Source: a virus. Taken from it: a stretch of DNA of 64,000 nt. The notes under the pieces were generated by a model. That model was not told the origin of the DNA and searched no databases. It saw only the letters and a list, made by a program, of their open reading frames with translations. Shown here one piece after another: positions 5,486 to 64,000 of the stretch (position 1 is its first letter; the number at the start of each line of letters is the position of its first letter). The position numbers were made by a program, and so were the translations under genes. Where the stretch lies: the IMG/VR virus record IMGVR_UViG_3300042301_004349, positions 107,172 to 171,171 of that record; one strand, given 5' to 3'.

Positions 5486-5494
5486 TATAAATAT
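5486..5494 (-). promoter_or_regulatory. Candidate late promoter box ATATTTATA before gp13
   Basis: On the minus strand the gap before the gp13-like gene carries ATATTTATAC, 22 bases from the ATG. The same box stands in most inter-operon gaps of the structural half and has no conserved upstream partner. Confidence 0.5.
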
Positions 5495-13776: not shown

Positions 13777-13785
13777 TATAAATAT
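13777..13785 (-). promoter_or_regulatory. Candidate late promoter box after portal gene
   Basis: The minus strand reads ATATTTATAC 22 bases before the ATG of the helical head protein, identical in sequence and spacing to the box before gp13. Confidence 0.5.
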
Positions 13786-17275: not shown

Positions 17276-17284
17276 TATAAATAT
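17276..17284 (-). promoter_or_regulatory. Candidate late promoter box before terminase gene
   Basis: The minus strand reads TATATATTTATATAC 16 bases upstream of the terminase ATG, directly after the T-rich tail of a terminator. Confidence 0.5.
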
Positions 17285-19237: not shown

Positions 19238-19755
19238 TAAAGATTTTGTAAAATTGTAGCGATACGTTCTTCTGTTGTACCTTCAACCTTAATTAATTTA
19301 TTAGGTTTATATTCATCTAATGATAATTGTATAGCTACATCTATTTTTCTACGATATTCTAAATCAGTTTCACGAATACCATTATCTTCCATTTCAACGC
19401 CATTGGGAGATACATAAATAACCAAATCATAATAACCACGAAGATGCATAGCTGCTTCAACAAATGAACGTTTTTCCCAACCACCAATAGTTTTTGATGA
19501 TAAAGTAAACGAACACACATCCCATATTGTACGATCTGTAATAATCTTAGGTTGTAATAATTCACTAGCACGTTCTGCTAGAAATATAAATTGTCCTGGT
19601 AGTATAGAATCTGTATTCAAAGGAATACCTAATCCGCTAAGATATTTACTACGTTCAGTTTGAATAATATAGTCTTTAAATTGTTCTACCTCACCCAATG
19701 CTTTGGCTAATGTAGTTTTACCTACAGACATTGTTCCTGCTAATCCTATTCTCAT
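19237..19755 (-). CDS. NadR-like P-loop kinase
   Basis: The 172-residue protein opens with MRIGLAGTMSVGKTTLAKAL, a Walker A loop, and has LQPKIITDRTIWDVCSF near residue 90 as the Walker B/DR region. The pattern matches AAA_28-type ATPases, the family containing the ribosylnicotinamide kinase domain of NadR and phage nucleoside kinases. It may phosphorylate a nucleoside or NAD precursor in host cytoplasm. It lacks the capsid leader seen in its neighbours. The start overlaps the upstream gene by four bases. Confidence 0.7.
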   Translation of the reverse strand: MRIGLAGTMSVGKTTLAKALGEVEQFKDYIIQTERSKYLSGLGIPLNTDSILPGQFIFLAERASELLQPKIITDRTIWDVCSFTLSSKTIGGWEKRSFVEAAMHLRGYYDLVIYVSPNGVEMEDNGIRETDLEYRRKIDVAIQLSLDEYKPNKLIKVEGTTEERIATILQNL

Positions 19756-20009
19756 TTTTTATTCCTTTCGTTTATTTTTTTCATCTGACGCGCTACTTTT
19801 TTCTGTTGCAGTGCTTCTTTAACCTGTTGTTTTATACGCTTCTCAGCACCTGGTTTATATTTGATATCTACCTCAATAGGTCCTTTATCAAATTTATCCA
19901 AATCATACTTCCATGTTTCGATAGTGTTATCATCCTCGTAAACTCTGTTGAATTTACGAGGTTGATCTACTGGTTGTGTTTCTTTAGGTCTACCTCTTCT
20001 TTCTTCCAT
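19752..20009 (-). CDS. Small AT-hook-like protein
   Basis: The 85-residue, highly charged protein starts MEERRGRPKETQ, where RRGRPK is an AT-hook core that binds the minor groove of AT-rich DNA. The C-terminal half is a Lys/Arg/Gln-rich helix (QVKEALQQKKVARQMKK). It overlaps the kinase-like gene by four bases. Sequence-tolerant DNA binding is inferred. Confidence 0.55.
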   Translation of the reverse strand: MEERRGRPKETQPVDQPRKFNRVYEDDNTIETWKYDLDKFDKGPIEVDIKYKPGAEKRIKQQVKEALQQKKVARQMKKINERNKK

Positions 20010-54398: not shown

Positions 54399-55193
54399 TT
54401 ACATTTTTATATACCCGTGTTCATAAAATTCACTAAATAATCTAAGACGTATTGTATCTAATTTTTTAATAATTTTAGTAATTTGGGGTGTATCAACGTC
54501 CGTAATTTCACGAATATAAATGTATAATGCCTTTTTATTAAATATTTCTAAATTTTCTCGTTTACGGAATAATTCAATAATAGCATCTGCTGTTCGTGCA
54601 TCCTGTTGTTTTGGAAATATTGTAAATATATGCTTATCAACATAAGCAACATATTGATCTAAAAACATATTAAGCTCATTCTTCTCCTCATCTAGACCTA
54701 TATTATTATCGACGAATACATCATTTTCATCGTTTACTTCGTCCATATTTACCTTTTCTTGTAGTTTCTTATAGTTGTTCTGGTTGTAAACTATTAAGTA
54801 ACGTTTAGCAATGGTACCAAAATATGAATAAGCTTTACCTTTATCTTGATTATATAAGTGAAGTTTCTCAAGAAGAAAAGCTACTACTTCATGTTTTAAA
54901 TCCTCAATTGTATCTGTGTCGGTATAATAAAACTTAAATGTATGAATAATATTTTCTGCTAGTTTATAAAAACCGTATGCAATGCGAGAATTATATATTT
55001 TATTACGAATATCCTGATCAGTGTGTGACAGGTATTCAACAATAGCATTTTCAGTGTCCTCTGTAAAATATATTCTAGGCTGTTTTGGTTTACGTTTACG
55101 TACGCTTCCCTTCTTAGTTAAAGCAGGACCTAATTGTTCATCTAAAAACTTAGCAGCATCAAAATTATCATTATCGTAATATCCGTTATACAT
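54399..55193 (-). CDS. gp55-like late sigma factor
   Basis: T4 gp55 directs host RNA polymerase to late promoters. This 264-residue protein carries a sigma-70 region 2-like core: TDTIEDLKHEVVAFLLEKLH, then YNQDKGKAYSYFGTIAKRYLI (residues 95-145). A basic segment RKRKPKQP lies upstream. The C-terminal part has EITDVDTPQITKIIKKLDTIR, a helix-turn-helix-like segment. The gene sits just before the baseplate operon and small regulators. It is the obvious candidate to read the ATATTTATA boxes. Confidence 0.78.
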   Translation of the reverse strand: MYNGYYDNDNFDAAKFLDEQLGPALTKKGSVRKRKPKQPRIYFTEDTENAIVEYLSHTDQDIRNKIYNSRIAYGFYKLAENIIHTFKFYYTDTDTIEDLKHEVVAFLLEKLHLYNQDKGKAYSYFGTIAKRYLIVYNQNNYKKLQEKVNMDEVNDENDVFVDNNIGLDEEKNELNMFLDQYVAYVDKHIFTIFPKQQDARTADAIIELFRKRENLEIFNKKALYIYIREITDVDTPQITKIIKKLDTIRLRLFSEFYEHGYIKM

Positions 55194-57352: not shown

Positions 57353-57379
57353 GTAAATATAACGTATATACCTTGCCAC
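57353..57379 (-). promoter_or_regulatory. Early-type promoter (TGGCA-N12-TATATTTAC)
   Basis: The minus strand reads GTGGCA, 12 bases, TATATTTAC. It has the same layout as the 16 promoters further right, but the coding start is unusually close. Confidence 0.65.
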
Positions 57380-57385
57380 TTGAAA

Positions 57386-57523
57386 CTAGTTTTGTTCAAG
57401 ACCTCTTTTTGGACCTATGCAAACGTGGGACAAAGGGGTATTTTCGGAAATGGTATATGCGTATATACCCATCGGCCCATGTTTACGGTGTTTGTGTTGA
57501 GAATACCCATAGTTTTTTTGCAT
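57386..57523 (-). CDS. Possible small protein (45 residues)
   Basis: An ATG-started frame of 45 codons reads MQKNYGYSQHKHRKHGPMG and continues to a TAG just upstream of the next promoter. Composition is plausible for a small basic protein. No promoter box of the usual type precedes it, so it may also be chance. Confidence 0.35.
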   Translation of the reverse strand: MQKNYGYSQHKHRKHGPMGIYAYTISENTPLSHVCIGPKRGLEQN

Positions 57524-57661
57524 TGACCACGGCCCGTCGATTGACCGCAATTACCGTGGGAGCACTTCGCTATCAAACCGCTATTGTACCGCTATCGTCT
57601 CGATACCGTCTGTAACCTTTTTTCGGTCACACGCCCGAGTGCCCGGTTGCCCGGGTGCCCG
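57524..57661. other. Non-coding GC-rich stretch with short iterated motifs
   Basis: This stretch lacks a convincing gene. It contains iterated TGCCCGG units (57635-57661) and a run with ATAGCGGT repeated at 11-12-base intervals (57568-57605). Such clusters occur at replication origins and at protein-binding sites, but could also be remnant sequence. It is much richer in GC than the flanking DNA. Confidence 0.4.
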
Positions 57662-57835
57662 TTATAGCTCGTTGGGTTGTTTCTTACGATGGCGTCTACC
57701 TATCATCCATGTTTTCACACACACGGTAAGCGGACCTACCAGAATCACTAATTCACTATCGTTTATTGCGATACCGAATACTAGACCCTTAATCAATTGC
57801 AATTCAATCCACCTGTTTCTAAATAATACGTTCAT
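57662..57835 (-). CDS. Small basic protein (57 residues)
   Basis: A clear ATG frame gives MNVLFRNRWIELQLIKGLVF, with a hydrophobic segment and a basic end (MIGRRHRKKQPNEL). It is preceded by an AT-rich leader like other right-arm genes but without a TGGKCA box. A membrane-associated small protein is likely. Confidence 0.5.
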   Translation of the reverse strand: MNVLFRNRWIELQLIKGLVFGIAINDSELVILVGPLTVCVKTWMIGRRHRKKQPNEL

Positions 57836-57894
57836 GTTATTATACTTTTAATGTAATGGTTAATTTATTATTTTATCTAGCTGATTATCTAGTT

Positions 57895-58086
57895 TTAATT
57901 GACTAGTTCATCCAATATCGCTTGCGCTTCAGATTTACTTACCCAACCATCACCGTCTACATCTACTAGATTGCCTACGTAATACATATCGTTCATGTTC
58001 ATTAGGCTATTCACATTCACCTTACTAGCAGCCTGCTCAATTGCGTCGGCTTGTCTTTCTAAATCTCTTAATCGTTTCGTTAACAT
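57895..58086 (-). CDS. Small EF-hand-like protein
   Basis: The 63-residue protein has an N-terminal helix and then VDVDGDGWVSKSEAQAIL, an EF-hand calcium loop with Asp at positions 1, 3 and 5 and Glu at 12. It is monocistronic behind an early-type promoter. Calcium binding is predicted, the role unknown. Confidence 0.55.
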   Translation of the reverse strand: MLTKRLRDLERQADAIEQAASKVNVNSLMNMNDMYYVGNLVDVDGDGWVSKSEAQAILDELVN

Positions 58087-58107
58087 ATCTTTTAATTTTA
58101 TTATGAC

Positions 58108-58140
58108 GTGAATATACGCTGCGAGCTCTGACCATCCACG
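58108..58140 (-). promoter_or_regulatory. Early-type promoter
   Basis: CGTGGATGGTCAGAG, then TATATTCAC; the TGGTCA to -7 spacing is 12 bases and the ATG lies 22 bases beyond. Confidence 0.75.
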
Positions 58141-58359
58141 TTATAGTCGATCGTCGTTTCTGAAGTCGATCTCATCCTGCTTTCTCATTTGAGCAAGCTG
58201 ATAGTTAGTGAATTCGATGTATTTCTTACCTTCAAGAGCATCATTCACAGCCATCATTCTATTCTCACCCACCACATACAGTCCGTCTTTTCGTCTTTCT
58301 AAACGTAATGGACCACTTAAATCGAACTTTTCCCCGTCATTGAATTTTAACATGCTCAT
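58141..58359 (-). CDS. Small early-arm protein, unknown
   Basis: The 72-residue protein reads MSMLKFNDGEKFDLSGPLR and then LERRKDGLYVVGENRMMAVN, a compact alpha/beta pattern, ending in charged residues. Single gene behind its own promoter. No family is recognised. Confidence 0.55.
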   Translation of the reverse strand: MSMLKFNDGEKFDLSGPLRLERRKDGLYVVGENRMMAVNDALEGKKYIEFTNYQLAQMRKQDEIDFRNDDRL

Positions 58360-58382
58360 ATTGTTTAATTATTTATTACGAC

Positions 58383-58415
58383 GTAAATATACATAGCCAA
58401 CCCTGACCAACCACG
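58383..58415 (-). promoter_or_regulatory. Early-type promoter
   Basis: CGTGGTTGGTCAGGG, then TATATTTACG with 12-base spacing; ATG 24 bases away. Confidence 0.75.
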
Positions 58416-58634
58416 TTAGAACGTAGTTGGACGGTTTTTCTTAGGTGCCTCGTCATCGTAGGCTTTATTAGCTATCCATACAGCCAGGTAGATGAACATT
58501 ACTTGAACGGTGTAGCCTAACCAGTTGTATGTTTCAAACTTAAACGCGGCGCCGAATGTGACGATACCCTCTATAAACGCTAATACCACTAACCCAATAA
58601 TTGAATACCCAATACGATCTAATACTTGCTTCAT
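58416..58634 (-). CDS. Small membrane protein
   Basis: The 72-residue protein has two hydrophobic helices (IGYSIIGLVVLAFIEGIVTF and YTVQVMFIYLAVWIANKAY) and a basic C-terminus. Early expression would fit a membrane-acting host-takeover or exclusion protein, which is speculative. Confidence 0.6.
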   Translation of the reverse strand: MKQVLDRIGYSIIGLVVLAFIEGIVTFGAAFKFETYNWLGYTVQVMFIYLAVWIANKAYDDEAPKKNRPTTF

Positions 58635-58655
58635 AACTTTAATTTTTATTATATG

Positions 58656-58683
58656 GTGAATATATGAACTGTGTTTTGACCCA
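58656..58683 (-). promoter_or_regulatory. Early-type promoter
   Basis: TGGGTCA, 12 bases, TATATTCAC; ATG 22 bases beyond the box. Confidence 0.7.
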
Positions 58684-58694
58684 TCACGCTTTAT

Positions 58695-58979
58695 TTAAGC
58701 GAAGTGAGGCCACATCATTATTGTTCCTGGATCGTTCCACTCGAAGCACCATCCGTTTTCATCAGCCCACTCGTTAATGGAGTTATGAACACCGAATTCG
58801 TACTGATCGTAATTTTCATTACCGTAATCGAATAGCTCCCATCCGTCAGCATTCGTTTCCCCGTTCTCACCAGACATCCAGATGCCGTCACCTAGGTCGT
58901 CATCGAATTCCTCTACCGGTCTCACGAATTCCACCCCCCACTTTTGTCTCAATTCAGACATCATTTTTTCTCTCTTCAT
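58695..58979 (-). CDS. Acidic small protein, unknown
   Basis: I start at MKREKMMSELRQKWG, the first ATG after the promoter; a longer frame would run into it. The 94-residue product is Asp/Glu/Trp/Asn-rich (GIWMSGENGETNADGWELF), ends with WNDPGTIMMWPHFA, and is strongly acidic like DNA-mimic or anti-restriction proteins, but that is only a composition argument. Confidence 0.55.
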   Translation of the reverse strand: MKREKMMSELRQKWGVEFVRPVEEFDDDLGDGIWMSGENGETNADGWELFDYGNENYDQYEFGVHNSINEWADENGWCFEWNDPGTIMMWPHFA

Positions 58980-59001
58980 AACCATTAATTTTAAGTACGA
59001 C

Positions 59002-59034
59002 GTAAATGTACGCGGCTGGCCTTGACCAGCCACG
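59002..59034 (-). promoter_or_regulatory. Early-type promoter
   Basis: CGTGGCTGGTCAAGG, 12-base spacing, TACATTTACG; ATG 23 bases away. Confidence 0.75.
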
Positions 59035-59044
59035 TTTCACTTAC

Positions 59045-59323
59045 TTACTTTGAAGTGTACTGAGCTTTAAGCTCATCAATTATCGGCTCCATGTACTCAT
59101 TAATCTTGTCGGCGTCAGCCTTAATTTCATCACTAGCCCAATTCAACACACATGTATCATGGTAACTGCGATCCCACTCGATCGTGTCATCATGACGCTT
59201 AGCGTCTGGCTTGATGAATGTAACTGATGCACCCATCCCATCATCGTGAACCTCATATCCTAATGACTCAGCGAACTGGTAGGCGGCTTTGTTAATCGCG
59301 CTTTTAATTTCTTTCTTATTCAT
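59045..59323 (-). CDS. Small early-arm protein, unknown
   Basis: The first ATG after the A-rich leader gives MNKKEIKSAINKAAYQF. The 92-residue acidic product has an alpha/beta pattern (FAESLGYEVHDDGMGASVTF). Single gene behind its own promoter. No family is recognised. Confidence 0.5.
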   Translation of the reverse strand: MNKKEIKSAINKAAYQFAESLGYEVHDDGMGASVTFIKPDAKRHDDTIEWDRSYHDTCVLNWASDEIKADADKINEYMEPIIDELKAQYTSK

Positions 59324-59345
59324 AACCATTAATTTTTAGTACGTT

Positions 59346-59380
59346 GTAAAGATACGAACGGGGCTTTGCCCCGCCCCGTT
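59346..59380 (-). promoter_or_regulatory. Early-type promoter with GC hairpin
   Basis: GGGGCAAAGCCCC forms a hairpin between the upstream and -7 boxes (TATCTTTAC). This may also terminate the preceding transcript. Confidence 0.65.
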
Positions 59381-59393
59381 TTACTTAATTTTT

Positions 59394-59669
59394 TTAATTT
59401 TCTTCCCAATACACATCCATAATTTCTTCTACTTCTTCATCTTCCATATTATAATCTTCATATAACATCTCTGCTATATAATCACTATCACCATAATCAT
59501 CACTCCATTCAACCCAATACTTATTAAATTCACTTAAAAATTCTTTAATTCCAACTTCTTCTTCACTTATATTATTACTAATCCACTCTCTTCTCTTCAC
59601 ATCCAATTCACCACCATCCCATTCTTCACTCATCAACACTTCTTTCATTACTCTCAAATCGATTTTCAT
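59394..59669 (-). CDS. Very acidic small protein
   Basis: The 91-residue protein is dominated by Glu, Asp, Tyr and Trp (WSDDYGDSDYIAEMLYEDYN). It is far more AT-rich than its neighbours at DNA level, which hints at separate acquisition. An acidic DNA-mimic protein is one possibility; there is no motif to prove it. Confidence 0.5.
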   Translation of the reverse strand: MKIDLRVMKEVLMSEEWDGGELDVKRREWISNNISEEEVGIKEFLSEFNKYWVEWSDDYGDSDYIAEMLYEDYNMEDEEVEEIMDVYWEEN

Positions 59670-59691
59670 AGCTTTTAATTTTTAGTACGTT

Positions 59692-59724
59692 GTAAATATA
59701 CGCTGCGAGCCCTGCCCATCCACG
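59692..59724 (-). promoter_or_regulatory. Early-type promoter
   Basis: CGTGGATGGGCAGGG, 12-base spacing, TATATTTAC; ATG 23 bases away. Confidence 0.75.
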
Positions 59725-59937
59725 TTAAGCTAACTTGTAGCTCCAACGGATAAGGTCCTCGTCCTCTATCTCATCCTCAAACACCATCGCTTGTGAGCCT
59801 AGGATGTCTTGAAGCTGGTAAAGGTTAACGCGCTTCCAGAAGCCGAAGCGTAGGGCGAACCGGCCACCCACTTGATAAATTGAGAAATCACCGATTTCAG
59901 ATCGGATTAGTGCGAGAGTATCTGCGCTTATGTTCAT
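59725..59937 (-). CDS. Small early-arm protein, unknown
   Basis: The 70-residue protein reads MNISADTLALIRSEIGDFSI and has FALRFGFWKRVNLYQLQDIL. Single gene with its own promoter. No family is recognised. Confidence 0.5.
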   Translation of the reverse strand: MNISADTLALIRSEIGDFSIYQVGGRFALRFGFWKRVNLYQLQDILGSQAMVFEDEIEDEDLIRWSYKLA

Positions 59938-59959
59938 ACTTTTTAAATTTAATTACGTT

Positions 59960-59993
59960 ATAAATATACGCACTGAACTCTGCCCCGCCACGT
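59960..59993 (-). promoter_or_regulatory. Early-type promoter
   Basis: CGTGGCGGGGCAGAG, 12-base spacing, TATATTTAT; ATG 23 bases away. Confidence 0.72.
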
Positions 59994-59999
59994 TCCGTC

Positions 60000-60269
60000 T
60001 TAAAAGAAGAACGCGTTCCAAGCGAACGGATTCAGTACCTTGTACCTTACACCTACGCCCGCTTGAGGCGCTTTAACGTAAGGTGATTGAACGGCTTCAA
60101 ACACGCAGTTGGTCTTACCCACACGGATCAATTTCCCTCGGCAAGTGGGTGAGTGGTTCTCGGATGTCTCTTTACCGATCACTGCCTTCAGATCTGAGAT
60201 CTGATCGTTCGGGCCGATGCTTTTTCTCGCGGCTATTAATTTGTTTGAAACGTAAATACCAATGCTCAT
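60000..60269 (-). CDS. Small early-arm protein, unknown
   Basis: The 89-residue basic protein starts MSIGIYVSNKLIAARKSIG and ends NPFAWNAFFF. Its codons are richer in GC than the head genes. Single gene with its own promoter. No family is recognised. Confidence 0.5.
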   Translation of the reverse strand: MSIGIYVSNKLIAARKSIGPNDQISDLKAVIGKETSENHSPTCRGKLIRVGKTNCVFEAVQSPYVKAPQAGVGVRYKVLNPFAWNAFFF

Positions 60270-60290
60270 AACTTTTAATTTAATTGTGAT

Positions 60291-60323
60291 GTAAATGTAC
60301 GAACGGGGTCTTGCCCCGCCTCG
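60291..60323 (-). promoter_or_regulatory. Early-type promoter with GC hairpin
   Basis: CGAGGCGGGGCAAGACCCC, then TACATTTAC with 12-base spacing; ATG 22 bases away. The GC-rich part could form a hairpin. Confidence 0.7.
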
Positions 60324-60479
60324 TTAGAACTGGATGTAATCAATTGCTTTTTCACCTATTGACTTACCGTCTCTAGTAATTTCGTAATTAGGATCCATTC
60401 CTGAGATCATGATGTGAGCAATTAAGTCACCAATGCAAGTGAACTCAGCTCCGTAATATTCACATTTTAAACTGTACAT
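60324..60479 (-). CDS. Small protein (51 residues)
   Basis: This short gene was found by reading the gap between two promoters. It encodes MYSLKCEYYGAEFTCIGDLI and ends with GKSIGEKAIDYIQF. An own promoter of the early type with correct spacing supports it. No family is recognised. Confidence 0.7.
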   Translation of the reverse strand: MYSLKCEYYGAEFTCIGDLIAHIMISGMDPNYEITRDGKSIGEKAIDYIQF

Positions 60480-60501
60480 AATATTAATTTTTAAGTGCAA
60501 C

Positions 60502-60534
60502 GTAAATATACGCTACTCACTTTGACCATCCACG
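60502..60534 (-). promoter_or_regulatory. Early-type promoter
   Basis: CGTGGATGGTCAAAG, 12-base spacing, TATATTTAC; ATG 23 bases away. Confidence 0.75.
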
Positions 60535-60543
60535 TACGAACAG

Positions 60544-60576
60544 AAAGAGGGAGCCGGGTAGACACCCAGCTCCTCT
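60544..60576 (-). terminator. Rho-independent terminator
   Basis: GAGGAGCTGGGT pairs with ACCCGGCTCCCTC, followed by TTTC. It ends the transcript of the conserved protein gene before the next promoter. Confidence 0.85.
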
Positions 60577-60607
60577 AACCATTAAAAATTAAAAGTATGA
60601 ACCGTTT

Positions 60608-61000
60608 TTAAGCCACGTCGGCTATTATCGTTAATGGGGTTAATGTACGGGGCTCGTAGCCTACCTTATAACAATCCCATTCAAATTTATCGTTAAAAAC
60701 ATAAACGTAATCTACTCCATAATCGGAAGCAACCGTCTCTAGTTCGTTAATCTTCACATCCCTAGACTCAGTCATCCATTTAGGTTCTTTCTTATCGCGA
60801 TGGTAAGCAACACTTTCATCTGTTGTTTTACCCAGTGCGCTCAAATCACCCAACTCTAACAACTCAGCTACTGTAGCGGGTGTGTTGTAGTGTTCCACTA
60901 GTAGCTGCCCTACGTGATCTGGGTATCCATCCCAGTGACAGTAGATTATATTAGCAATTTCACCGTTTACTTGAGTTCCAATCAATGATCTTGTAGCCAT
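60608..61000 (-). CDS. Conserved phage protein of the MATRS family
   Basis: The opening MATRSLIGTQVNGEIANIIY followed by CHWDGYPDHVGQLLVEHY resembles a conserved family of small phage and bacterial proteins (MATRSxI...YxHWDGYxxxxGxxLxxxY). The 130-residue product is full length. The function of the family is unknown. It lies behind its own promoter and before a terminator, a complete transcription unit. Confidence 0.75.
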   Translation of the reverse strand: MATRSLIGTQVNGEIANIIYCHWDGYPDHVGQLLVEHYNTPATVAELLELGDLSALGKTTDESVAYHRDKKEPKWMTESRDVKINELETVASDYGVDYVYVFNDKFEWDCYKVGYEPRTLTPLTIIADVA

Positions 61001-61022
61001 AACTTTAATTTTAATTTATGAT

Positions 61023-61055
61023 GTAAACATACGCTAAAAAACTATGCCACCCAAC
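61023..61055 (-). promoter_or_regulatory. Early-type promoter (degenerate)
   Basis: GGGTGGCA, 13 bases, TATGTTTAC; ATG 23 bases away. Confidence 0.6.
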
Positions 61056-61310
61056 CTATGCCTCAGCAACAGGTTTCACACCACCCAACATGTTAAGGAC
61101 ATCATCCTCACTCAATCCCTCAACACCGTTTTCCTCATCTTTTCTCATGGAAACAGCCATCAAAGCCAATGTGATCACTTCAGCCAGATCAGGATTGTCG
61201 TTAATAACATTTGCAAACAAATTCATTAACTCTTGACCCGAGCCATCACATTCTACGTGGATCTGGTCCTCATCTGTTAATTCTACTCTAAAAAACGGTT
61301 TCTTGTTCAT
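61056..61310 (-). CDS. Small acidic early-arm protein
   Basis: The 84-residue protein starts MNKKPFFRVELTDEDQIHVE and contains a helical middle (LAEVITLALMAVSMRKDEE). No family is recognised. Single gene with a degenerate early promoter. Confidence 0.55.
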   Translation of the reverse strand: MNKKPFFRVELTDEDQIHVECDGSGQELMNLFANVINDNPDLAEVITLALMAVSMRKDEENGVEGLSEDDVLNMLGGVKPVAEA

Positions 61311-61340
61311 AACAATTAATTTTTTAAATTTTATTTATGT

Positions 61341-61370
61341 GGGAAAAATACGAAAACTTACTCTGACCTC
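61341..61370 (-). promoter_or_regulatory. Early-type promoter (degenerate)
   Basis: GGAGGTCAGAG, 13 bases, TATTTTTCC; ATG 31 bases away. Weaker match than its neighbours. Confidence 0.45.
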
Positions 61371-61381
61371 CAAATTTATTT

Positions 61382-61597
61382 TTAATAAAACACCCTTTGA
61401 TGTACCCCATGGAGTGAACTCACCCTCAGCTCACGCATCCAGCTGAACTGGTCTGGTTGGCTCTGGGGCTTCACCGTACGCTTCGGTTGCTCAACACCGT
61501 ACTCTAAATTGATGGGTTCACCCTCCGTACGTACTCCGAACAAAAACACCGTAAAAAATTGCAATAAGTTCACTTGAAAACCAAATAGTTTGATCAT
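61382..61597 (-). CDS. Small early-arm protein with hydrophobic N-terminus
   Basis: The 71-residue protein has a hydrophobic start (MIKLFGFQVNLLQFFTVFLF) and a Gln/Arg/Ser-rich tail. It resembles in its first residues the MIKL leaders, but there is no [LI]-x-E site, so I do not count it among the cargo proteins. Function is unknown. Confidence 0.45.
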   Translation of the reverse strand: MIKLFGFQVNLLQFFTVFLFGVRTEGEPINLEYGVEQPKRTVKPQSQPDQFSWMRELRVSSLHGVHQRVFY

Positions 61598-61616
61598 AAT
61601 TTAATGTTTTAATGAT

Positions 61617-61644
61617 GTAAATGTAATAACCTACCTTTGCCAAA
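61617..61644 (-). promoter_or_regulatory. Early-type promoter (degenerate)
   Basis: TTTGGCAAAG, 12 bases, TACATTTAC; ATG 20 bases away. Confidence 0.6.
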
Positions 61645-61768
61645 CCGCTCTACGATCCCCTATTATACAGACCTGGCGTTTAGGTGCTTTAAAGCGTCTA
61701 ATCTTTCGTTCCACTGAACATGAAACACAGAGCGAGATTAATACAACCGCTACGATAAACTTTTTCAT
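61631..61768 (-). CDS. Small predicted lipoprotein
   Basis: I start at MKKFIVAVVLISLCVSC, a signal peptide with a lipobox-like LCVSC; the longer frame would run through the upstream terminator. The mature part is a short Arg/Lys-rich peptide. A phage lipoprotein with superinfection-exclusion or lysis-related role is possible. Confidence 0.6.
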   Translation of the reverse strand: MKKFIVAVVLISLCVSCSVERKIRRFKAPKRQVCIIGDRRAVWQR

Positions 61769-61797
61769 TGTAATAGTATTGATGTTAAAAAAATAAA

Positions 61798-61832
61798 GCC
61801 CGTGGGGTGGGTGAAACCCACCCTTCACGGAC
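61798..61832 (-). terminator. Rho-independent terminator after AT-hook gene
   Basis: GGGTGGGTTTCACCCACCC forms a strong hairpin with flanking GTG/CAC pairs; a T-rich tract follows on the minus strand (GGGCTTTATTTTTTT). Confidence 0.9.
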
Positions 61833-61834
61833 AA

Positions 61835-62086
61835 TTAAGCAGCCACCTGTGAACTGATCGGTGATGCTTTCTTAGGAGCACCACGCTTGATCACCTCACC
61901 AGCTGCGATCTTCGCTGCGCGCTCAGCTAACTTTCTTTGACGTGCTGATTCACCATTTGCAGGACGACCCCTACCGATTGATCCACCCGCGGCTGCTCTA
62001 GCTGCTCTGGCTGCTAGACGTGCTTGACGAGCTGATGTGTTAGATACTGGGCGACCTCTTTGTGCTGATTTTACTTCTGTTGACAT
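61835..62086 (-). CDS. AT-hook-like basic protein
   Basis: The 83-residue protein has RGRPVSN and GRGRPANG motifs and a RGAPKKA variant, separated by Ala/Arg-rich helices (ARLAARAARAAAGG and AERAAKIAAGEV). It looks like a small nucleoid-type protein that bends or coats AT-rich DNA. It ends at a strong terminator. GC content is clearly higher than in the head genes. Confidence 0.65.
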   Translation of the reverse strand: MSTEVKSAQRGRPVSNTSARQARLAARAARAAAGGSIGRGRPANGESARQRKLAERAAKIAAGEVIKRGAPKKASPISSQVAA

Positions 62087-62120
62087 AACCTTGATTTTGT
62101 TTTTTATTTAATTTTATATT

Positions 62121-62148
62121 TTAAAGATAAGACGTTTTGTTCTGACCA
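62121..62148 (-). promoter_or_regulatory. Early-type promoter (degenerate)
   Basis: GGTGGTCAGAAC, 13 bases, TATCTTTAA; ATG 35 bases away. Confidence 0.5.
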
Positions 62149-62154
62149 CCACCT

Positions 62155-62454
62155 TTATTGTTCGACGGGCTCACTAATTGCTTTTAGTGTCTCGTAAAAC
62201 TCATAGGTGAAGATCGTTCTGGGTTCACCAAAAATGATCTCGTGATCAATCCGCTCGTAACGATAGTGGTTATTAGTTCGGGTTAAAAGGATCTTATCGA
62301 TTGCCTTTAAGCACATTTCTTCACCGTAGAAAAAATCATCACTGTCAGCCATCAAATTAAACTCCTGGCCACCTTTTGCTTTCCAATATGGGGTCTCTTC
62401 TGAACCGTAGTTTTCCCAGACCTGAGCCGTAATTCTAATCAATGTGTTTTTCAT
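62155..62454 (-). CDS. Small early-arm protein, unknown
   Basis: The 99-residue protein starts MKNTLIRITAQVWENYGSEE with a compact alpha/beta pattern, and has a YEFYETLKAISEP end. The opening resembles a small group of phage proteins of unknown role. Single gene with its own promoter. Confidence 0.55.
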   Translation of the reverse strand: MKNTLIRITAQVWENYGSEETPYWKAKGGQEFNLMADSDDFFYGEEMCLKAIDKILLTRTNNHYRYERIDHEIIFGEPRTIFTYEFYETLKAISEPVEQ

Positions 62455-62470
62455 AACCTTTAATTATAAT

Positions 62471-62500
62471 GTAAATATCGGAACAAAACCCTGCCAGACC
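62471..62500 (-). promoter_or_regulatory. Early-type promoter (degenerate)
   Basis: TCTGGCAGGG, 12 bases, GATATTTAC; ATG 17 bases away. Confidence 0.55.
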
Positions 62501-62505
62501 AACTA

Positions 62506-62691
62506 TTACTTCACAAAGCGGCCGTTGCGAACATCTCGCTTACGAACAACCCCACGACGGTCTCTCATCTCAATGATGTAACGGTTCTTAAAAAGGTTGT
62601 ACAGAAACCCAGCACCCAACACCACCAATGCTGATGTACCCAAAATTTGAAATAACTCCATTTGTTTTTTGTTTAAGTTTAAATTATTCAT
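62506..62691 (-). CDS. Small membrane protein
   Basis: The 61-residue protein has a single membrane helix (GTSALVVLGAGFLYNLF) and a very basic tail (RDRRGVVRKRDVRNG). It overlaps its upstream partner by eight bases and has no promoter of its own, so the two form an operon. Confidence 0.55.
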   Translation of the reverse strand: MNNLNLNKKQMELFQILGTSALVVLGAGFLYNLFKNRYIIEMRDRRGVVRKRDVRNGRFVK

Positions 62692-62869
62692 TTACATACT
62701 GCTCATACATTTCAAGAAGATCTTCTCCGTCTATTTCAAACGGATCTTCATCTTCAAAAAAACCATGAAACCCATTGTCTCTAACGAGGAAAACATCTTC
62801 CCCGATCTGTGTGATGTCTGCACCCGCTTTGGTAAGACTCACTAACGCATTTTCAATTTCCATTTTCAT
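62684..62869 (-). CDS. Small acidic protein, unknown
   Basis: I start at MKMEIENALVSLTKAG, the first ATG after the promoter. The 61-residue acidic product contains GFHGFFEDEDPFEIDGEDLL. It heads a two-gene operon with the membrane protein. No family is recognised. Confidence 0.55.
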   Translation of the reverse strand: MKMEIENALVSLTKAGADITQIGEDVFLVRDNGFHGFFEDEDPFEIDGEDLLEMYEQYVNE

Positions 62870-62885
62870 AACCTTTAAGTACGAT

Positions 62886-62912
62886 ATAAATGTATGAACA
62901 AAACGCTGCCCA
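62886..62912 (-). promoter_or_regulatory. Early-type promoter
   Basis: TTGGGCAGCG, 12 bases, TACATTTAT; ATG 17 bases away. Confidence 0.6.
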
Positions 62913-62918
62913 ACCAAA

Positions 62919-63131
62919 CTACTTAGGTGAAAAAACAGCTTGCATTGCGTCTAGTCCGTAACGAACTCCCGCGTGAAAAATAAACAACAAATCAGTGTCA
63001 CTAGTGATTTCAATAGCGATCCTTTGCTGACCTGTTTCTTCATCTAGGTCTCCTATGAGGGTGACCTTTTCCTTCAATTCCTCTTTTAAATAAGCGAGGC
63101 GCTCTGGGCGCATAAAGATTTCTGCTTTCAT
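62919..63131 (-). CDS. Small early-arm protein, unknown
   Basis: The 70-residue protein reads MKAEIFMRPERLAYLKEELK and has a QRIAIEITSDTDLLFIFHAG strand-helix segment. It lies 12 bases after the upstream small gene, so the two are probably one operon. Confidence 0.5.
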   Translation of the reverse strand: MKAEIFMRPERLAYLKEELKEKVTLIGDLDEETGQQRIAIEITSDTDLLFIFHAGVRYGLDAMQAVFSPK

Positions 63132-63143
63132 AACTATTAATTT

Positions 63144-63305
63144 TTATTTCAATTCCATTAATTTCTTCATCATACCCAATTCAATGATTACATCACCATT
63201 CTTCTCTAAATTCTCTTTTAATAGGGGAAGGAGATGAACTACATTAGGGTGGTTACTTATCCCTAATCCCTTAATGAATTCACTTAACAACATCTTCTCT
63301 TTCAT
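63144..63305 (-). CDS. Small early-arm protein, unknown
   Basis: I start at MKEKMLLSEFIKGLGISNHP, the first ATG after the promoter; the longer frame would overlap it. The 53-residue product is mostly helical. No family is recognised. Confidence 0.5.
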   Translation of the reverse strand: MKEKMLLSEFIKGLGISNHPNVVHLLPLLKENLEKNGDVIIELGMMKKLMELK

Positions 63306-63327
63306 AACTATTAATTTTAAATGTGAT

Positions 63328-63356
63328 GTAAATATACGAACAGAACTATGACCGAA
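63328..63356 (-). promoter_or_regulatory. Early-type promoter
   Basis: TCGGTCATAG, 12 bases, TATATTTAC; ATG 23 bases away. Confidence 0.65.
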
Positions 63357-63362
63357 CAAAAC

Positions 63363-63998
63363 TTATCGCCTAGTTGCTTTAGGGCGCCCGCGACGGCCGC
63401 CAGTGCGTGCCTTCACCAGTGCTTTTTGAGCCGCGCGGGAGGAAATCATTTCACTTGTGAGTGAAGGTCGTCCGCGCTTGCCGCCTGTAGGCTTTGATGT
63501 TTTTGATGTTACACCAGAAGCTGGGCGTCCTCTCTTACCTCCACTACGCTCTCCGCGAGCTACTTTTTCTGCTTCGCGAGCTAACCTTACCTCTGGATCA
63601 AGTGCTGGACGTCCTCTACGGCCACCCTCAACCTTCTCCTTCTTGGGTTTCATCCCACGCGCGAGCGTAGCTGCCTCACGTTCATCCGAACGATTCATCA
63701 TGCGGAGTGTCTTCTTATGTTTGATCACGGACGGGTGAATGATCACCTGATCCAAACCAAAACAACGACTCGCACCTGAAGCATCACGTACCTCATATCC
63801 ACCCTCAGGCCATCCTGGCTCACCGGCTTCACGTTGTCTGATGAGTGAAAAAAATAAACGCCCCTCATAAAAGTACGGTGCGGGTAAAACCCTATCGTGT
63901 GGTTTAAAAACAGATAACTCAGGTTCAATATCGGCGTAGCGCTTCACAGTTCCACACTGTTCACCACCAACCATAAATGGGGTTTCTACTAGTCTCAT
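63363..63998 (-). CDS. Protein with four AT-hooks
   Basis: An N-terminal domain of about 110 residues (MRLVETPFMVGGEQCG and onward) is followed by a C-terminal half with four AT-hooks: GRRGRPALD, GKRGRPASG, GKRGRPSLT and GRRGRPKAT. The hooks are spaced by about 25 residues of Ala/Lys/Arg-rich sequence. Such a protein should coat or bridge AT-rich DNA, perhaps as a phage nucleoid or anti-silencing protein. The ATG is close to the window end, so an even longer form starting outside cannot be fully excluded. Confidence 0.7.
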   Translation of the reverse strand: MRLVETPFMVGGEQCGTVKRYADIEPELSVFKPHDRVLPAPYFYEGRLFFSLIRQREAGEPGWPEGGYEVRDASGASRCFGLDQVIIHPSVIKHKKTLRMMNRSDEREAATLARGMKPKKEKVEGGRRGRPALDPEVRLAREAEKVARGERSGGKRGRPASGVTSKTSKPTGGKRGRPSLTSEMISSRAAQKALVKARTGGRRGRPKATRR

Positions 63999-64000
63999 AT

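Follow-up and report, generated by a model that had tools for sequence, protein, structure and literature searches.

Little is known about how Bacteroidota myoviruses programme their transcription. In T4, the MotA box, with the consensus (a/t)3TGCTTtA, lies 12 ± 1 bases from the -10 box, and in F. psychrophilum the sigma-A box occupies positions -12 to -5 of the start (PMC9723704; see also PMC7366714, PMC2988021 and PMC4177764). Here, we focus on a family of repeated elements on the minus strand at 57.36–63.36 kilobases (kb) of a 64,000-base stretch of viral DNA (hereafter the window), which comprises positions 107172–171171 of the 171,171-base virus record IMGVR_UViG_3300042301_004349. Each repeat combines an upstream word, (T)GG[G/T]CA, with a TAtaTTnA-type box at a nearly constant distance. 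We consider, with a probability of roughly 80%, that these repeats are promoters of pre-replicative genes and form one of two promoter classes in a T4-like phage of probable Flavobacteriales hosts, a view that draws on sequence comparison throughout.

A Promoter Array of Near-Constant Spacing

The minus strand carries 17 boxes in this region, with the CA that ends the upstream word placed 12 bases away in 14 copies and 13 bases away in three, in agreement with the number and spacing given by an earlier sequence-only reading of the same DNA. The strict pattern G[G/T]CA-N11-13-TAnnTTnA fits 15 of the 17, the exceptions being the copies with boxes at 62479 (GATATTTAC) and 61350 (TATTTTTCC), where a box is denoted by the first base of its 9-mer on the minus strand. 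This pattern occurs 15 times on the minus strand of 57–64 kb, whereas 200 first-order shuffles gave 0.22 on average and never more than 2. The same strand of 1–57 kb has four occurrences, where 3.55 are expected; on these counts the array is a genuine feature, local to this part of the window. The small genes of the array each have their own promoter copy, which mostly begins directly past the stop codon of the preceding gene. The ATG had been said to follow usually 22–24 bases on; measured from the end of the box, the distance is 16–23 bases in 14 of the 17 copies; two others have 31 and 34, and the copy with its box at 57361 has 3.

The copies at 58.1–60.5 kb are the best preserved and, as had been noticed before, carry CGTGG or near variants upstream of the element. 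They lie at 60502..60534 (box 60510; CGTGGATGGTCA-N12-TATATTTAC), 60291..60323 (box 60299; CGAGGCGGGGCA-N12-TACATTTAC), 59960..59992 (box 59968; CGTGGCGGGGCA-N12-TATATTTAT), 59692..59724 (box 59700; CGTGGATGGGCA-N12-TATATTTAC), 59346..59378 (box 59354; CGGGGCGGGGCA-N12-TATCTTTAC), 59002..59034 (box 59010; CGTGGCTGGTCA-N12-TACATTTAC), 58656..58688 (box 58664; CGTGATGGGTCA-N12-TATATTCAC), 58383..58415 (box 58391; CGTGGTTGGTCA-N12-TATATTTAC) and 58108..58140 (box 58116; CGTGGATGGTCA-N12-TATATTCAC), all on the minus strand, as are the remaining ones. Further to the right are 63328..63360 (box 63336; TTTGTTCGGTCA-N12-TATATTTAC), 62886..62918 (box 62894; TTTGGTTGGGCA-N12-TACATTTAT), 61617..61649 (box 61625; TTGGCA-N12-TACATTTAC) and 61023..61056 (box 61031; GTGGCA-N13-TATGTTTAC), together with three weaker copies: 62471..62503 (box 62479; GTTGGTCTGGCA-N12-GATATTTAC) and 61342..61375 (box 61350, 13-base gap), both outside the strict pattern, and 62121..62154 (box 62129), a copy with a 13-base gap and a long leader. 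The leftmost copy, 57353..57385 (box 57361; GTGGCA-N12-TATATTTAC), is of the leaderless type, with the ATG exactly 12 bases past the first T of the box.

Spacing, Box and Inferred Start among Relatives

Relatives were collected through the neighbouring gene for a 264-residue protein, by which 80 loci were fetched; 42 of these, picked by upstream length, were used alongside the window and the immuto phages, and 38 were left out. Similar arrays occur in many of the 42 loci. The spacing was counted in 40 sources, excluding the window and its three closest relatives, on boxes TAnnTTnA that precede genes. Upstream of 484 such boxes, G[G/T]CA stands at 12 bases in 120 cases, at 11 in seven and at 13 in two, so that 120 of the 129 copies with gaps of 11–13 have a gap of exactly 12, while every other gap accounts for at most five and the reversed word for at most 14 at any gap. 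At position -5, the element-bearing boxes of relatives have A in 186 of 206 cases and G in five, which sets them apart from the Bacteroidota sigma-A box TAnnTTTG with its G at this position. An earlier count with narrower boxes, superseded by that on 484 boxes, had given A in 108 and G in three of 123, against A in 428 and G in 193 of 944 control boxes.

The distance from the box to the gene provides a second regularity. From the first T of the box to the ATG, the 40 copies of the record itself show exactly 12 bases in seven cases, 24–45 in 30, and 11, 14 or 15 in three, with none of the 40 at 16–23. Among 141 copies of relatives, five lie at 12 and three at 13, the others being at 21 or more, and this gap in the distances is absent from 166 boxes without the element. 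Because a pile-up at one distance is what would be expected of leaderless mRNAs, the start would lie at the A of the ATG in the leaderless copies; transcription would then begin 12 bases past the first T, with the box at about -12 to -5, in agreement with the position of the F. psychrophilum sigma-A box.

In the immuto phages, the same genomic place is occupied by an array with another word, GTTG[C/G][C/T], in 20 copies, and the gap from TTG to the box is 20 bases in all 20; a pattern count gave no copy of a GGCA array there. Starts in immuto would fall 12 bases past the first T of TATATTTAG. Other upstream words were seen by eye in two further relatives, TTGACCGC in L151 and TTTGG[C/T]TACC in L176.

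Such rigidity recalls the T4 MotA box, at 12 ± 1 bases from the -10 box, and raises the possibility of a middle-type appropriation of sigma, in which a newly made phage activator would sit on GGCA at about -28, taking the place of sigma region 4, and would cooperate with host sigma-A at the -12 box; the scheme would resemble MotA/AsiA, with unrelated proteins and an unrelated site. It is also suggested by the frequent loss of the -33 contact and by GGCA not being a host element in the one host-type genome tested. We nonetheless regard it as improbable, in that GGCA does not resemble the MotA consensus and that a new activator would be left without a promoter, no other early class being visible: TAnnTTTG precedes genes in just 10 of its 255 occurrences, on both strands.

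Two Probable Promoter Classes across the Record

A weight matrix trained on 15 right-arm copies was applied at a threshold of at least 15 bits to the whole record and to 10 shuffles. It gave 32 matches, 17 of them non-training copies, against a mean of 0.3 (maximum 2) per shuffled record. All are on the minus strand, at 0.15–50.4 kb and 165.2–170.5 kb of the record, and none reaches this threshold between 50.4 and 165.2 kb. A 127-base repeat at the ends of the record (window 63874–64000) indicates that the record is probably circular, and the right arm with its 17 copies, taken before as the limits of the system, proves too narrow: the class runs on across the circular junction. By the looser count of boxes with G[G/T]CA at 11–13 bases, 40 copies in the record precede genes, mostly in the non-structural half, with a few at 127–143 kb in the structural half.

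A different box, TATTTATA, is found before structural genes. Of its 60 occurrences, 30 precede genes, and 22 of the 30 lie in the structural half, including those before the genes of the terminase and of large tail-region proteins; in immuto, it stands before genes in 21 of 30 cases on the coding strand, and 14 of the 21 are in the structural half. The T4 late box, TATAAATA, precedes genes in three of 60 occurrences, so that the late-type box here is not that of T4. Examples of TATTTATA in the window, each on the minus strand, are those at 17276..17283 before the gene for the terminase large subunit, at 13777..13784 before a 284-residue gene downstream of the portal gene, and at 5486..5493 before a 665-residue gene (weak head-tail adaptor match). 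Since the structural genes have this separate class, a pre-replicative role of the GGCA class is likely. The former description of a coordinated early regulon holds as regards a real, coordinated promoter family, whose timing may be early or, less probably, middle.

The array adjoins a gene at 54399..55193 (minus strand) for a 264-residue probable late sigma factor resembling T4 gp55, the homologue of immuto gp118, which is annotated only as hypothetical. Pfam sigma region 2 matches it with an E value of 1.2e-4, below the cut-off, and a profile search for sigma region 4 found no match in it. The structure model (pLDDT 72.7) has its best VIA match in 7d7c_F, the T4 gp55 open complex (Z 9.7, 113 residues, rmsd 4.8 Å), tied within one Z unit with other sigma factors; the matches listed are apparently all sigma factors, with the caveat that helical proteins may reach a comparable Z in VIA-align by chance. 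Foldseek on the same model returned nothing below E 0.014, and T4 gp55 aligns with the protein in register at a low score. The model has the gp55-like fold at sigma region 2, with weak support from sequence, and the assignment as a gp55-like late sigma factor is fairly well supported by the modelling; such a factor would presumably read TATTTATA.

Is the Element a Host Signal?

The repeats might instead be extra-strong host promoters, at which the host holoenzyme alone reads contacts at -33, -28 and -12, the additional word being a determinant of strength with no phage protein involved. T4 early promoters have an extra consensus beyond the host elements, and a TTTG or TTG at -33 is common in the scattered copies elsewhere in the record. 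We examined this on 1.14 Mb of G001, a related Flavobacteriaceae metagenome-assembled genome (MAG), in 568 intergenic upstream regions, counting each pattern against the reversed sequence. Host promoters are visible in these regions, because TAnnTTTG (299 against 95) and TATATTTG (55 against 3) exceed the reversed counts; TAnnTTTA gives 305 against 266. G[G/T]CA at gap 12 before TAnnTTnn is not enriched (5 of 1916 against 2 of 1808), and the avoidance at -5 of the G typical of hosts likewise speaks against a purely host-read promoter. The box itself is not wholly absent from this genome, since TATATTTAC occurs 12 times against once, and no GGCA at gap 12 was seen by eye upstream of these 12 boxes. 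The claim that the element differs from the TTTG/TAnnTTTG consensus is upheld by the A in place of G at -5 in relatives and by the lack of G[G/T]CA enrichment in G001, and we therefore find the host-only account doubtful, well short of even odds.

Several observations weigh against a phage-specific element read together with host sigma-A. G001 is a stand-in for the host, chosen for a contig that bears a terminase relative and that may have been binned there in error. In a test of the pattern over the whole genome, G001 gave 18 elements against 6 reversed, which favours the host-only account and runs counter to the intergenic result. Counted in the same way, the element pattern gave 11 against 6 in three genomes, 84 against 107 in 100 and 732 against 862 in 41, and these whole-genome tests are powerless, the control TTTG-N20-TAnnTTTG being equally flat (1564 against 1553); as this positive control failed, the conclusion rests on the intergenic test in G001. 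In addition, only 19 of the 77 copies counted in the family with narrower boxes retain TG at -34/-33, though each of the 15 window copies in the alignment has G at -33, and a consistent avoidance of G at -5 would be odd if host sigma-A read the class at time zero.

Two side observations were made in these genomes. G026 shows TTTG-N20-TAnnTTTG 188 times against 19 reversed, unlike the remaining 40 genomes, and G001 (L206) contains a repeated element of its own, three near-identical intergenic stretches in which TATATTTAC is followed by CGCGAAAGGATTCGCGC-like hairpins.

Hairpins and Possible Transcript Ends

Part of the family carries an inverted repeat within the spacer. With a stem of at least 6 base pairs, at least 4 of them GC, hairpins are found in 23 of 167 element-bearing copies against 1.2 in dinucleotide shuffles; a first count on all boxes had found stems of at least 8 in 6 of 231 against 0.5. 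The hairpin copies are spread over 13 sources with differing stem sequences, and the loop mostly falls on the CA or CAAA of the element. The window has hairpins of 8 and 6 base pairs in the spacers of the copies with boxes at 59354 and 59010, and a shorter stem of 5 base pairs, seen by eye, at 60299. These structures appear to be terminators for the gene before, superimposed on the spacer of the promoter in a minority of copies, where they could end the preceding transcript, and a spacer that doubles as a hairpin would make for a compact promoter design.

The GC-rich hairpins centred on the element, far above the shuffled expectation, might suggest that the repeats act chiefly as terminators or as operator sites and are not promoters. 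Against that, 144 of the 167 copies have no hairpin, and what is conserved is the box, the fixed gap and a structured distance to the ATG, which makes this account extremely unlikely. The hairpins also bear on the many monocistronic units proposed for the array: a terminator-like stem in 23 of the 167 family copies supports such units in part, and read-through is likely in the remainder.

Which Protein Might Read the Element

Two families of proteins with AT-hook-like motifs accompany the GGCA arrays. One, of 83 residues with three RGRP/RGAP motifs, is encoded in the window at 61835..62086 (minus strand), behind the long-leader copy with its box at 62129, and is present with arrays: it was found in all 12 sources that have 7 kb or more of upstream DNA and 8 or more copies of the element, and in none of the seven sources without an array (immuto, L151, L153, L155, L167, L175 and L176). 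This association may stem from common descent, through a single split in the family tree. The other, of 211 residues with four motifs and a beta-rich N-terminal domain, lies at 63363..63998 (minus strand), at the end repeat of the record; its model (pLDDT 67) gave weak barrel-like matches with E of 0.11 or worse. A third protein with an RGRP hook was noted at window 19752–20009 (minus strand), judged from its first residues alone. A profile search for MotCF found no match, in a search that had no working positive control, and this counts, to that extent, against the middle-type appropriation of sigma.

Another possible reader would be an RNA polymerase of the phage itself, packaged in the virion in the manner of N4 or crAss-like phages. 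Large proteins without a PHROG match are available for such a role (773 and 889 residues in the structural region, 1480 and 875 residues in the window); the beta-prime-type domain PF04998 was absent in a search whose control was found in 14 of 14, the box occupies the sigma-A position, and a search for the T7-type polymerase PF00940, without a working control, was negative. Such a polymerase is very unlikely here. Promoters of the sigma-54 (GG-N10-GC) and extracytoplasmic function (AAC / CGT) types were rejected by eye, the GG-N10-GC and AAC words being absent from the alignment.

Phage, Host and Genomic Surroundings

The phage is classed as a T4-like myovirus from matches to T4-type families in its terminase, its portal protein, its major head protein and its baseplate wedge. 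Among isolated phages, those closest to it are the Flavobacterium phages immuto (Immutovirus), with a terminase 53.6% identical and a gene order common to both. Terminase relatives in bacterial assemblies were found at 7 loci, all in MAGs, of which four carry the labels Flavobacteriaceae, Flavobacteriales or Bacteroidetes, two are given only as 'bacterium', and one, where the match is very short, as Spirosoma; on the grounds of these taxon labels the host probably belongs to the Flavobacteriales. The right arm (window 58–64 kb) has a G+C content of about 0.40–0.42, compared with about 0.27–0.37 elsewhere in the window. Homologues of FolE, QueC, QueD and DpdA at 48.8–54.3 kb of the record (L011) suggest 7-deazaguanine DNA modification; both promoter boxes avoid G, and a relation between the two may be coincidence.

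Proposed Transcription Scheme and Related Systems

In the scheme we favour, host RNA polymerase with sigma-A would contact the TAtaTTnA box, and (T)GG[G/T]CA, at about -28 to -25, would supplement or largely replace the -33 contact. The element would be read by a phage protein, injected or made very early, at about even odds, a reader that is assumed because the GGCA word was not found in host-type promoters. The structural genes would be read later by the gp55-like sigma from lone TATTTATA boxes. Taken as a whole, this account, with the host polymerase on the -12 box helped by a phage-specific -28 element and a gp55-like sigma taking over, is evenly poised between right and wrong. More tentatively still, and as a suggestion that could well fail, the T4-like phages of Bacteroidota may have evolved a co-option of sigma-A independently of MotA/AsiA, in which a phage protein, perhaps one of the two AT-hook proteins that accompany the arrays, reads a lineage-specific word 12 bases off the -12 box, the arrays differing by lineage and being uniform internally, and some copies fusing a promoter with the preceding terminator.

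If true, a code of two classes, with GGCA-N12-TAtaTTnA ahead of non-structural genes, TATTTATA ahead of structural ones and a gp55-like sigma, would allow likely time classes to be given to the genes of many uncultured relatives; the immuto phages, being in culture, open the scheme to direct testing. A literature search, with most subscription journals outside its scope, returned no description of such promoters in Bacteroidota myoviruses.

Compared with known systems, the phage class shares with the Bacteroidota sigma-A promoter (-33 TTTG, -7 TAnnTTTG) the TAnnTT box, at the same place relative to the inferred start, and a G at -33 in the window copies, whereas A at -5, the extra GGCA at -28 and the rigid gap are its own, and the -33 word is often lost in relatives. 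The T4 middle promoter is similar in that a word stands upstream, near -30 and some 12 bases away from the -12 box, and in that a -33/-35 contact is frequently missing, but the phage word is GG[G/T]CA and not TGCTT, the MotA-box consensus does not fit, and no other early class is seen. T4 early promoters likewise are many, with an extra consensus, among small and mostly unnamed genes; the sequences of the box, of the word before it and of the leader are different. The PeSL elements of T4-type phages, reportedly described by Arbiol et al. in 2010, are mobile regulatory cassettes in which an early promoter is joined to a stem-loop. These too are repeated intergenic promoters with a stem-loop, located in a variable region, whereas here the stem-loop sits within the promoter itself, in the stretch from the -33 region to the box, and in the minority of copies counted above. 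The closest parallel in position is the immuto array, which has the same genomic place, its own homogeneous promoter, an A at -5 and a rigid gap, and is distinguished by its word GTTG[C/G][C/T], set 20 bases (TTG to box) from its box, in place of a GGCA array.

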